Assembly: GCA_902797085.1 (NCBI GenBank)
Contig: CADBRM010000113.1
Location: 1-57,724 of the forward strand
Reading direction: 5' to 3'
DNA length: 57,724 nt
Source: an uncultured Methanobacteriaceae archaeon
GTDB lineage: Archaea; Methanobacteriota; Methanobacteria; Methanobacteriales; Methanobacteriaceae
Shown: one piece after another, positions 4,510-14,530 of the stretch
Position numbering within the stretch: position 1 is the first letter of the stretch
Layout of the letters: every line of letters starts with the position of its first letter
The notes under the pieces: generated by a model
The model's input: only the letters and a program-made list of their open reading frames with translations
What the model was told of the DNA's origin: nothing
Databases searched by the model: none
Program-made: the position numbers and the translations under genes

Positions 4510-5562
4510 ATGAATTTAGATAACCCTGCAATTAATCGTGAAAATGTTCTACATGAAATAGACAATTTACTTAAATCATACGACTTTAAAACTTCTGACA
4601 TATATGATAGAAGTTGCTTTGATTTACTTGCCAGAAAAGATAACATACTTATTATTCTAAAAATTTTGGTAAACATTGACAGTCTAACAGCACAACAGGC
4701 AGAGGAGTTATCTAAAATTGCAGGAACCTTTTTAGCCAGTCCCATAATAATTGGACTAAAATCCAAACATAATCTTCTTGAAGAAGATGTCGTGTATGAA
4801 AGACATGAAATTCCAGTAATTACTCCACAAACGTTATGTAATATTATAGTGAATGATATTCATCCGGAAATTTTTGCTAAACGTGGAGGATACTATGTGA
4901 AAATTGATGGAAAATTACTAAGACAACTACGTGAATCCCAAAATTTATCCCTTAAAGAACTGGCAGATATGAGTCATGTTTCTAGAGAAACCATTTACAG
5001 ATATGAACAGGGAAATTCCCAAACTTACCCTGAAACAGCACTGATGATAGAAGAAGTTCTTCAAAATCCCATCACACTGTCATTCAATTTGTTAGAATCT
5101 GAAAAACATAACAGTTTAGATAAAAAAATTCAGGAACCTATAGAACTTATTAAGTTGGGTTATGATGTTAAAAGTTCTAAAAAAACACCATTTGATGCAA
5201 TATCTGAAAGTACTGAAAATTCAAAAGAAATCCAAAAATTACAAGAAAAACTTGAAAACAAATTAGATGAGATAGAAAAAATCAGAGCAGAAATAAATAA
5301 GAAAACCCAAGAAAACAATATTCTTATTACTAATCTAGAACGAGGAAGAAGTGAAAATACATTAAATAATATTGCTAATAAAACACAAGACATCTCATCT
5401 GTTACAGGATATGATGCATTATTTGTTTTAGAAAACGAACATAAAACAGAAAATATTAAAAAAATACCTGCCATATATACATGGGAACTAAAAGAAATGA
5501 CAAACATCGATGATTTATTAAAATTAATAAAAGAAAGAAAGGAAGAAGCTGAAGAATCATAA
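4510..5562 (+). CDS. XRE-type transcriptional regulator, archaeal family
   Basis: Putative DNA-binding regulator (350 aa) of the conserved archaeal HTH family (UPF/HAMAP MF_00584 type). A Cro/CI helix-turn-helix lies at about residues 134-185 ([20 protein letters not shown], then ETIYRYEQG). The N-terminal ~130 residues resemble the family's restriction-endonuclease-like domain, and residues ~235-285 are predicted coiled coil rich in E, K and N. No target is evident. It is divergent from tiaS (96-base gap with TATA-like sequence) and overlaps the convergent downstream gene by 6 bases. Confidence 0.82.
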
Positions 5563-6504: not shown

Positions 6505-8079
6505 ATGCCAAAAGTATTAGTAGCTGATAAGATTAATGAAAAAGGTGTAGAAGTATTAGAAGGATCAGCAGAAGTTGTAAACGATCCTACAATCACACCT
6601 GAAGAATTACTTGAAACAATTGACCAATATGAAGGAATAATTGTTAGAAGTAGAACAAAAGTTACAAGAGACGTAATAGAAAATGCAAAAAACTTAAAAA
6701 TTATTGCAAGAGCTGGTGTTGGAGTAGACAATATTGATGTTGAAGCTGCAACAGAACACGGTATATTAGTTGTTAACGCACCTCAATCAACATCCATCAC
6801 TGTAGCAGAACATGCTATGGGATTAATGTTATCATTAAGCAGAAAAATTGCAATTGCGGATGCATCTGTAAAATCCGGAAAATGGGAAAAAAGTAAATTC
6901 ATGGGAATGGAATTACGTAACAAAACTCTTGGTGTAATCGGAATGGGTAGAATTGGAAGCCAAGTAGTAAAAAGATCAAAAGCATTTGAAATGGATGTAA
7001 TCGTATACGATCCATATATCACAGAAGAAACTGCCAAAGAGTTAGGTGTAGAAATTACAACATTAGATAACTTAGTTCAAACAGCAGATGTAATGACAAT
7101 CCACGTACCTTTAACTCCAGAGACTAAAGGTTTAATTTCCAAAGATGAATTAGCAAAAATGAAAGACAATGCAATTCTTTTAAACTGTGCTAGAGGTGGA
7201 ATCATTGATGAAGCTGATTTATACGAAGCATTAAAAGAAAGACCAGAACTAAAAGCAGGTTTAGATGTATTCGAAAACGAACCATTAGAAAACAGCCCAT
7301 TAGCAACATTAGACAATGTAGTACTTACACCACACATCGCAGCATCTACAAAAGAAGCACAACGTGATGCAGCAATTATCGTTGCAAAAGAAGTTAAAGA
7401 GGTTATTAACGGAGGTACACCAACTAATGTATTAAACATGCCCTTAGTTGATTCCGAAACCTTTCAAACCCTAAAACCATACTTCCAATTAACAGAACAA
7501 TTAGGAAAAGTTCTTGTACAAACTACCACACCAAACATTTCTGATCTTAACATTACCTACAGTGGAGAAATTAATGGTAGATCCAAAGAACCTCTAACGA
7601 GAGAATTATTAAAAGCATTCTTAAATCCTATCTTAACAGAACCTGTAAACAGTGTTAACGCAAAATCAGTTGCAAAACAAAGAGGAATAAAACTCACAGA
7701 AAGTGAAACAGAAGACAGCGGTAAATATGATGCATCAATAAAAGTTTCAGTAAAATATGATGATGAAGAATCAACCATTGAAGGTGTAATTGAAAACAAA
7801 GAACCTAAAATTATTTCAATTAACAACTACGATGTAAACTTAAAATTAGAAGGTTTAATGGCAATCATCCAATACAAAGATTTACCAGGAACTATCGGAA
7901 CTATAGGTACAATATTGGGCAAATACAATATCAACATTGGCGAAATGCAAGTTGGTAGAGAATCAACTGGTGGACAAGCAGTAATGGTTCTTAAAGTAGA
8001 CCAAGAAATTACTGAAGATGCTATTAAAGAATTAGAAGGAACTCAGGACATAGAAGTTGTAAAACCAGTAAACTTATAA
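6505..8079 (+). CDS. serA: D-3-phosphoglycerate dehydrogenase
   Basis: Oxidises 3-phosphoglycerate to 3-phosphohydroxypyruvate with NAD, the first step of serine synthesis. This is the long (type I, 524 aa) form. The NAD-binding GMGRIG lies at residues 146-151. The catalytic Arg ([10 protein letters not shown]), Glu (DVFENEPLE) and His (LTPHIAAST) are all present. An intervening substrate-binding domain follows, then a C-terminal ACT domain (about 452-524, [16 protein letters not shown]), so serine feedback is possible. ATG 6505 has AAAGGAGA 8 bases upstream. It is a single gene ending in a hairpin plus T tract. Confidence 0.96.
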
Positions 8080-8137: not shown

Positions 8138-8584
8138 TTATAAATTATTTTTCAAACGCTCATTTTCTGCTTTCAGTTTAGCAATATCTTCTTCCATTTG
8201 TTTAATCTCTTCTTCTATTTCTTCGGAAGATTTTTGTGGAGTAATATCTATCACATCATCATTAGCATTGTTTGCTGAATTATTTGGCATATTAGTTGTT
8301 GTAATATTTTTTGATGCACCGCTTCGAGGAATTTGTACCCTTCTGACGTTAGCCCTGTTTTGATTATTATTATTTACATTTTGTGGAGCTTTCCTTACGT
8401 GTACTAAAATTTCATCTATATCATCATTTGGTGTTTTGTCTGTTCTAATATCAACATCTATCTGGTCTCCAGGTTCATATTCCGGTGGTAACGGTATTTC
8501 TTTAGTAACTTTTTTACCTTTAATTTCAAATTCCAAATTTAATGTTGCCTGTTTTTTTGGTTGATTGTTATCCTGTTGTGACAT
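8138..8584 (-). CDS. possible internal-start product: C-terminal 148 aa of the JAMM protein
   Basis: In-frame alternative start inside the JAMM gene. The ATG at 8584-8582 follows TAAGGAGAAT with a 9-base gap, a better site than many genes here have. The product would begin MSQQDNNQPKK and contain the proline-rich PLPPEYEPGD segment, the Asn-rich linker and the C-terminal coiled coil, without the protease domain. The junction falls exactly at the end of the acidic linker, a sensible domain boundary. That it is translated separately is inference. Confidence 0.35.
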   Translation of the reverse strand: MSQQDNNQPKKQATLNLEFEIKGKKVTKEIPLPPEYEPGDQIDVDIRTDKTPNDDIDEILVHVRKAPQNVNNNNQNRANVRRVQIPRSGASKNITTTNMPNNSANNANDDVIDITPQKSSEEIEEEIKQMEEDIAKLKAENERLKNNL

Positions 8585-9214
8585 AATATTATTCTCCTTA
8601 GCAATATTATTAGATTCTACTTCAGTATCCTTTTTCTGTATTATTTCTTCTTGAACTGATTTTTCTTCATGTAATATCTCATCTTCTTCCTGTTCTAATT
8701 TTTTCATTTCCTCTATAAATTCTTCGTCAAAATACTCCTTATCAATGTCCAATTCATCCCATTGTTTTATTTCAACTTCTTCACCCAAATCTTTTATTAC
8801 AAAAGTTAGTGGATTACCTGCATGATCATAAGCCCTTATTGATGCTTCTGAGTAGGGTCTACAAATTATCATGTGGAAGTACCCGTTCTTTTGGAAGAAT
8901 GTTAAGTCTGCTTGAGATGGTTGGGCACTTGGTCCGGGATGGCTATGTACGGAACCTACTGCTTTAGTTGTCATTGGCATCATAAATACTTGCATTACAG
9001 CAGAAGATTCTGATGCCTTGTAAGGTAAAAATATTAGTCCTGTAATTTTTAAGATATGCTTATCAATCTTTCCTGACAGTAATGCCACGTATTCCTTTGG
9101 GTCGGCGTTTATTGCAATTTTGATTATTTCATCAATTACTCTCTGGTCTATCTGTACTTCGTCAATTGATTTGTCATTGCCTAATAATTTTGACAGTGCA
9201 TTGTTAAAATCCAT
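8138..9214 (-). CDS. JAMM/MPN+ metalloprotease-like protein with C-terminal extension
   Basis: The N-terminal ~130 residues are a JAMM (Mov34/MPN/PAD-1) domain with a complete zinc motif: Glu41, His90 and His92 in VHSHPGPS, Ser100 and Asp103 in PSQAD. In other archaea such proteins remove ubiquitin-like SAMPs, so isopeptidase activity is plausible. An acidic linker (~150-205) follows, then a small basic/beta region (~225-280), an Asn-rich stretch, and a C-terminal coiled coil (~328-358). ATG 9214 has GAGGGTGA upstream. An in-frame internal ATG at 8584 (codon 211) has its own AAGGAG site 9 bases before it, so a second product is possible. Confidence 0.8.
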   Translation of the reverse strand: MDFNNALSKLLGNDKSIDEVQIDQRVIDEIIKIAINADPKEYVALLSGKIDKHILKITGLIFLPYKASESSAVMQVFMMPMTTKAVGSVHSHPGPSAQPSQADLTFFQKNGYFHMIICRPYSEASIRAYDHAGNPLTFVIKDLGEEVEIKQWDELDIDKEYFDEEFIEEMKKLEQEEDEILHEEKSVQEEIIQKKDTEVESNNIAKENNIMSQQDNNQPKKQATLNLEFEIKGKKVTKEIPLPPEYEPGDQIDVDIRTDKTPNDDIDEILVHVRKAPQNVNNNNQNRANVRRVQIPRSGASKNITTTNMPNNSANNANDDVIDITPQKSSEEIEEEIKQMEEDIAKLKAENERLKNNL

Positions 9215-9282
9215 TATTTCACCCTCAGTTATAGAGTAAATTTAATGATTTAATTCGTATAATTATTTTAGTATTAATCATC

Positions 9283-13528: not shown

Positions 13529-14530
13529 TTATAATGTGAAATCTAATTTTTTATCAAGACTTGTCAGAACTTTAGTGTTCTTACCGACAAGAACATCATC
13601 TTCAATTCTCACACCAAATTCTCCGGGAATATAAATACCAGGTTCTGCTGTGATAACCATGCTCTCCTCCAATATTCCTTTTGCCTTGTTGGAAATAATC
13701 GGATCCTCATGAATATCCAAACCAAAACCGTGTCCGGTACTATGAATAAAATATTCACCATAACCGTACTCAGATATTACATCCCTTGCAGCATTGTCAA
13801 CATCAGCATAACTAACCCCAGGAGCAATAGTTTTTATAGCAGCCTTTTGTGCTTCCAAAACAATATTCCATATTTCTTCCTGACGTTCGGTATCAATAAA
13901 AGTTCTGGTTATGTCAGAACAGTAATGATCATATTTTGCACCCCAATCCACTACAATAGGTGTTTCAACACGGTTCATGGATGTTTCTGAATGAGGTGAA
14001 CTAGAACGTTTTCCACCAGCAACTATCGTATCAAAAGCAGGTTTTATTGAACCGTTAATGGTCATGTCAAATTCCAACGATGCAGCTGCAAATTTTTCTG
14101 TACTTGAAAAATCAATTTCCATTATGGCATTTTCTGCAATGCCTATGGAATTTTTAATATTGGTAATTTCTTCCTTGGTTTTTGTTTTCCTTTTATCTGT
14201 AAAGACATTTGAAGTTTTGATTGATGATATATCATCAGCCAAATGTTTTACCATCCCAAATTCCAATGAACTTTCTACAGCAACATTACCTGTGAGTAAT
14301 TCCTTAATTTCAGAAAATTTTATAATATCCCTCGTTTCTATCTCTGCTTTTTCCTCAGCAGATTCTTTATCAATACTGTTGACATATAAAATTGGTTCGT
14401 CCGTTATAATCAAATATGCTGTACTGGAAGGATAGAAACCAGAGATATATTTGATGTTTTCTGGTGAATAAACAAACATGGAATCTATATTTTCATCGTT
14501 TAATTGATTTAATATTTCTTCGTTTTTCAT
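13529..14530 (-). CDS. pepQ: M24 family metallopeptidase (Xaa-Pro dipeptidase-like)
   Basis: 333-aa peptidase of the pita-bread fold. The creatinase-like N-terminal domain covers ~1-125. The catalytic domain has all five metal ligands: two Asp in VDWGAKYDHYCSDITRTF, His in HSTGHGFGLDIHE, Glu in TAEPGIYIPG and Glu in GVRIEDDVLV. It probably cleaves dipeptides or peptides with proline at the second position. ATG 14530 follows GAGGT by 6-7 bases. It appears to be a single-gene unit between the pilin pair and ycaO. Confidence 0.88.
   Translation of the reverse strand: MKNEEILNQLNDENIDSMFVYSPENIKYISGFYPSSTAYLIITDEPILYVNSIDKESAEEKAEIETRDIIKFSEIKELLTGNVAVESSLEFGMVKHLADDISSIKTSNVFTDKRKTKTKEEITNIKNSIGIAENAIMEIDFSSTEKFAAASLEFDMTINGSIKPAFDTIVAGGKRSSSPHSETSMNRVETPIVVDWGAKYDHYCSDITRTFIDTERQEEIWNIVLEAQKAAIKTIAPGVSYADVDNAARDVISEYGYGEYFIHSTGHGFGLDIHEDPIISNKAKGILEESMVITAEPGIYIPGEFGVRIEDDVLVGKNTKVLTSLDKKLDFTL

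Follow-up and report, generated by a model that had tools for sequence, protein, structure and literature searches.

Does the JAMM metallopeptidase gene of this uncultured Methanobacteriaceae archaeon encode one protein or two? The gene lies on the minus strand of the window, by which we mean the whole 57,724-nucleotide stretch of DNA analysed here, and a Shine-Dalgarno (SD) sequence precedes an in-frame ATG at its codon 211. Comparison with related genes leads us to consider it probable that the locus is a gene within a gene, kept by evolution, in which the SD-led internal start would yield a short chain that joins the full enzyme.

The JAMM gene and its internal start site

The gene and the elements of its two starts are as follows.

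8138..9214, minus strand: JAMM gene, long product of 358 aa (open reading frame; Prok-JAB match; relatives in 142/150 genomes of the order)
9219..9224, minus strand: GGGTGA, an SD-like run ahead of the main start (-8.5 in the duplex with the assumed anti-SD)
8831..9145, minus strand: Prok-JAB/JAMM domain, residues 24-128 (57.3 bits to Pfam PF14464, whose cut-off is 25)
8594..8599, minus strand: internal SD, AAGGAG (read from the sequence; energy -7.1; SD-like counterpart in 16/19 congeners, its own site counted)
8582..8584, minus strand: internal start ATG, codon 211 (read from the sequence; in-frame start kept in 16/19, TTG in three)
8138..8584, minus strand: putative short product of 148 aa (translation)

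The JAMM protein has a single match in its own genome, which is 87% complete. Prok-JAB is the sole Pfam match above cut-off in the full-length protein, and the cut-off of the haloarchaeal desampylase NF041370 is not reached (23.3 bits vs 130). Residues E41, H90, S91, H92, S100 and D103 are invariant in all 19 Methanosphaera proteins of the alignment; E41, H90, H92, S100 and D103 correspond to E, HxH, S and D, which we take to be the metal motif of JAMM/MPN+ proteins. Family membership suggests that the enzyme probably cleaves ubiquitin-like conjugates, the substrates on which archaeal JAMM enzymes work according to two reports (PMC4895103, PMC6043591). Among 11 named Methanosphaera loci searched up to 3 kb on either side, thg1 and an aspartate dehydrogenase-like gene (partial in one case) each accompany the JAMM gene in 10, and serA does so in 8.

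At the internal start the reverse strand reads GCTAAGGAGAATAATATTATG. The original prediction of an SD and an in-frame ATG at codon 211 is borne out by these letters: AAGGAG is present, nine bases separate GGAG from the ATG at 8584-8582, this ATG is in frame with the open reading frame 9214-8138, and an open frame of 148 aa runs from it. SD strength is expressed throughout as the energy of the duplex with an assumed anti-SD sequence. The 16S tail pattern GGATCACCTCCT occurs in none of the 20 genomes of the genus and a universal 16S site in one of them, so the rRNA seems to be missing or masked in these genome copies.

Taken within the window alone, the codon-211 site is ordinary and not beyond chance. 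Among the 603 internal in-frame ATG, GTG and TTG codons of the 54 open reading frames, 27 reach a duplex energy of -7.0 or below, the codon-211 site (-7.1) included, and comparison with relatives is therefore needed. The SD enrichment in the window is itself partly circular because gene starts had been picked by their SD; when the count is redone with first ATGs, AGGAG lies upstream of 6/54 starts vs 17/1358 control positions, and GGAGG upstream of 0/54 vs 7/1358. Two other genes of the window have an internal SD and in-frame start stronger than that of codon 211, both at -9.3: the gene at 13529-14530 (minus strand), at about codon 290, and the gene at 4510-5562 (plus strand), at about codon 129. 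Across the 10 species compared, the internal SD of the JAMM gene is stronger than the gene's own SD in six and weaker in four, including the present one; its strength is about that of a gene start.

Architecture of the protein

An AlphaFold model of the JAMM protein, built with 36 sequences (mean pLDDT 74, pTM 0.46), divides the region after the JAMM domain into four elements.

8621..8725, minus strand: predicted acidic helix, residues 164-198 (AlphaFold model)
8561..8617, minus strand: disordered joint, residues 200-218 (pLDDT < 50)
8390..8545, minus strand: beta module of four strands, residues 224-275 (AlphaFold model; conserved in the genus)
8144..8227, minus strand: helix at the C terminus (residues 330-357), probably a coiled coil (AlphaFold model; weak coiled-coil profile matches, best E 0.0067)

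A further disordered stretch is modelled between the beta module and the C-terminal helix. Codon 211 falls within the disordered joint of residues 200-218, between the JAMM part and the beta module with its coiled coil. This succession of joint, beta module and probable coiled coil fits the earlier proposal that what follows the start could be a free chain with a coiled coil.

The C-terminal chain could not be assigned to a known Pfam family, all eight matches of the window's chain lying below cut-off; a Pfam scan of the other members' chains gave weak matches, mostly to coiled-coil families. A PDB profile search with the chain reached a best E of 0.0067, in the coiled-coil region. With the model of the short chain, Foldseek returned no match at E <= 0.001 and the best Z from VIA-align was 2.5. 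That model is poor (mean pLDDT 64), and a new fold is therefore not claimed.

Distribution of the gene and of the C-terminal chain

Relatives of the JAMM protein are widespread in the order, being found in all but eight of its 150 genomes. By sequence, only Methanosphaera, a genus of methane-producing gut archaea, has the C-terminal chain: it is present in 19 of the 20 genomes, in every case fused within the long open frame, and the twentieth (G116) holds residues 1-79 only of a gene cut at the contig edge. Relatives of the Methanobrevibacter type have a different, shorter tail, and other relatives consist of scarcely more than the JAMM domain. Genome contigs were scanned with an alignment-based profile, the best 80 of 130 matches being kept, and the chain was not found as a stand-alone gene among the 150 genomes of the order. 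The suggestion that the two parts might be separate genes in other Methanobacteriales has accordingly to be given up, as the C-terminal chain was not found outside the genus.

A first search outside the genus gave one weak match, in G088 (E 0.009), and a second gave four (E 1e-4 to 6e-4), which cover profile positions 92-131 or 54-131 and lie in open frames of 395-925 codons. These were rejected as true relatives and are read as coiled-coil resemblance. A search for viral relatives found none. One record titled Treponema sp. (JAHAZJ010000214.1) bears a Methanobrevibacter-like JAMM gene, probably through a binning error.

Conservation of the internal start in Methanosphaera

Alignments of the 19 Methanosphaera genes were made at both the DNA and the protein level. 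The sequences can be aligned over the JAMM domain and over the C-terminal module, but hardly at all over the linker between the two. Within this linker, 16 of the 19 genes have, 11-33 residues ahead of the module, an in-frame start whose SD energy is -5.8 or below. Conservation in relatives, whose absence had been named beforehand as grounds for abandoning the idea, is thus seen in most congeners. At the level of sequence, the SD, the start codon, its frame and its spacing are kept in Methanosphaera while the residues of the linker have changed.

The sites vary in their letters: AAGGAGG-ATATTATT-ATG in L005, AAGGAGG-ATATTAAC-TTG in L006, GAGGAGG-AAACTGAA-TTG in L004, TAGGAGATGATTTA-ATG in L012 and TAGGTGA-AAAC-ATG in L013. 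In L011 the site is ATGATG at codons 179-180, and the short chains predicted from the sites are 119-165 aa long, depending on the species. The weakest of the 16 sites are those of L008 and L015, both at -5.8. The linker start is absent from three genes, namely L009 and L010, which are identical in the columns used for the tree, and L019, the most divergent. Both L009 and L010 have GCAGGAGGTATACCT-ATG (-11.4) at codon 136, within the JAMM domain; this site may have arisen by chance or may be a start that has moved.

When the codons of each linker are permuted, 15 of the 16 sites have p < 0.05 (L015, p 0.146); under synonymous resampling just 9 of the 16 do. An SD energy of -7 or lower occurs in 14 of the 19 linkers, vs 0.62 expected from codon permutation. 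Collapsing the genes to nine lineages leaves six at <= -7, with P about 9e-9 if lineages are independent, an approximate assumption for a tree with unresolved deep forks; to count, a lineage needed the site in a majority of its members, and each was assigned its highest null probability.

The linkers contain 11 exact SD cores (AGGAG, GGAGG or AGGTGA), of which 10 are followed by an in-frame start; the one core without such a start at the proper spacing is in L012. The distance from core to start is 8-9 nt for AGGAG and GGAGG and 4 nt for AGGTGA, about one register against the anti-SD. Five further runs of the outer motif letters in the linkers have no in-frame start. The SD is found in two codon phases, being read for example as KED, TEE or EED in L001-L007 and as IGD or IGE in L012, L013, L014 and L016; it is therefore the bases that are kept, not the residues. 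All three linker starts other than ATG, which belong to one clade (L004, L006, L007), are TTG, vs 48 of the 471 leucine codons in the genes, and UUG is given among archaeal start codons in one paper (PMC7531240). Within each gene, mRNA folding at the site is weaker than in most other windows (rank <= 0.21 in 11 of 16), partly because of base composition.

A probable gene within a gene and its alternatives

A mechanism that would account for these observations is as follows. Ribosomes starting at the normal ATG would make the JAMM metallopeptidase, ending in the beta module and the coiled coil. Ribosomes starting at the SD-led ATG in the disordered joint, or at TTG in one clade, would make the beta module and coiled coil alone. 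Our inference is that ribosomes use both starts and that the long chain is joined by the short one, which lacks an enzyme part of its own; the simplest route for this would be the coiled coil, itself a predicted helix. The joined short chain may then set the assembly or the activity of the enzyme.

A different account, which we think unlikely, has the short chain acting as an inhibitor and not as a partner, and translated, as in rpn, from a separate transcript that begins inside the gene instead of from the full-length mRNA. The layout is alike, with the enzyme first and an oligomerising tail last, and a study of E. coli rpn (PMC10327210) reports both that the C-terminal chain, translated on its own, blocks the full-length protein and that transcription can start inside the gene. 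This account shares the internal start with the gene-within-gene reading and differs solely in the transcript and the effect. A candidate internal promoter was sought upstream of the internal start and rejected, with nothing above shuffled sequence: in the 16 genes a perfect TATA-like box occurs 30-120 nt upstream in none and one with a single mismatch in four, about the shuffled level, in what is a weak test for AT-rich DNA.

That the pattern reflects chance or shared ancestry without function is very improbable. Such sites are common in the window, as the 27 of 603 internal codons attest, and since the tree does not resolve its deep forks, the nine lineages are independent only in part. Control genes from the same loci (serA, thg1 and the aspartate dehydrogenase-like gene) have a start at <= -5.8 in at least one sequence at 16 of 1021 alignment columns, and just one of these columns, serA column 493, is common to a majority. 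There an SD-like run and an in-frame start are present in 9/9 orthologues (window 6505-8079), in a well conserved stretch of protein that probably carries the site along; a conserved protein motif can therefore do so. Against chance stand the linker residues, which are not conserved, the two codon phases of the SD, and the count of 14 linkers where less than one is expected.

A further comparison is with 49 genes from outside the genus, mostly from Methanobrevibacter. Downstream of the JAMM core, a start at <= -7 turns up in 17 of them, which counts against the gene-within-gene reading; in 14 it falls at residue 144-145, next to a GDY motif at the end of the domain. Beyond this motif, the disordered tails have one at <= -7 in 1/49 and at <= -5.8 in 3/49, which speaks for that reading.

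The GDYxx position itself (about residue 144, in the Methanobrevibacter-type genes L049-L108) has codon TTG in 13/49 and ATG in 9/49, preceded by SD-like GGTGAT or GGAGAT. TTG makes up 13 of the 27 leucine codons there, vs 18.7% overall, and CTG is enriched as well. A parallel start at GDYxx is not claimed, since 27/49 have neither ATG nor TTG at this position.

Finally, it is scarcely credible that the SD-like run is kept to slow elongating ribosomes so that the JAMM part can fold, with no initiation. In favour of this, the run does sit at the modelled domain joint, and slowed elongation at internal SDs has been proposed, though it is disputed (PMC5100845). Against it, pausing needs no start codon, yet an in-frame start follows 10 of the 11 exact cores at initiation spacing, an out-of-frame start alone follows none save one core in L012, and all three non-ATG sites are TTG.

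Comparison with known systems

To our knowledge, cases of a gene within a gene are little documented in archaea and rarely recognised. A search of the open-licence literature on Methanosphaera JAMM proteins and on archaeal internal starts or genes within genes found no report of an internal start in Methanosphaera JAMM. If the gene-within-gene reading is right, it adds a case in an unrelated family, backed by conservation across a genus, and gives an archaeal JAMM enzyme a built-in partner or regulator. Its signature, an SD and a start kept in a drifting linker, even across codon phases, could reveal more such genes.

The closest solved relative by sequence and fold is AfJAMM (PDB 1r5x, 1oi0). 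It shares the JAMM domain by sequence (E about 1e-23) as well as by fold; unlike the present protein, its solved chains have 124-133 residues and lack the C-terminal chain.

An archaeal counterpart is Cas11b of Haloferax volcanii, made from inside cas8b. As reported (PMC11899642), it too is a C-terminal chain from an in-frame internal start, with a possible SD upstream. Cas11b is, however, a CRISPR protein proven by tagging and start-codon mutation, whereas here the enzyme is an unrelated JAMM protein and the evidence is one of conservation.

Spa33/SctQ of type III secretion also has an internally started C-terminal chain carrying a domain that is repeated in the full product, and for Spa33 this chain is reported to bind the full-length one (PMC4832279). 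It differs from the present case in being bacterial, in having no JAMM domain, and in that both products and their 1:2 complex have been shown, whereas the pairing proposed here is a prediction. The Spa33/SctQ C-terminal domain family is absent from the Pfam scan of the full and short chains, which is silent on functional likeness.

RpnL/RpnS is similar in having an enzyme domain first and a separately started, oligomerising C-terminal chain. RpnL is a PD-(D/E)XK nuclease, and RpnS is reported to be a helical bundle that inhibits it (PMC10327210); in contrast, the protein studied here has a JAMM domain followed by a predicted beta module and coiled coil. The Pfam scan gave no match to the PD-(D/E)XK nuclease N-terminal domain, Prok-JAB alone being above cut-off. 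Tentatively, and as something short of an even prospect, we suggest that Methanosphaera may possess an archaeal JAMM enzyme with an intragenic partner that co-assembles with it and either controls its assembly or holds it back; such an arrangement, comparable to that of SctQ or RpnS, would have arisen independently in archaea.
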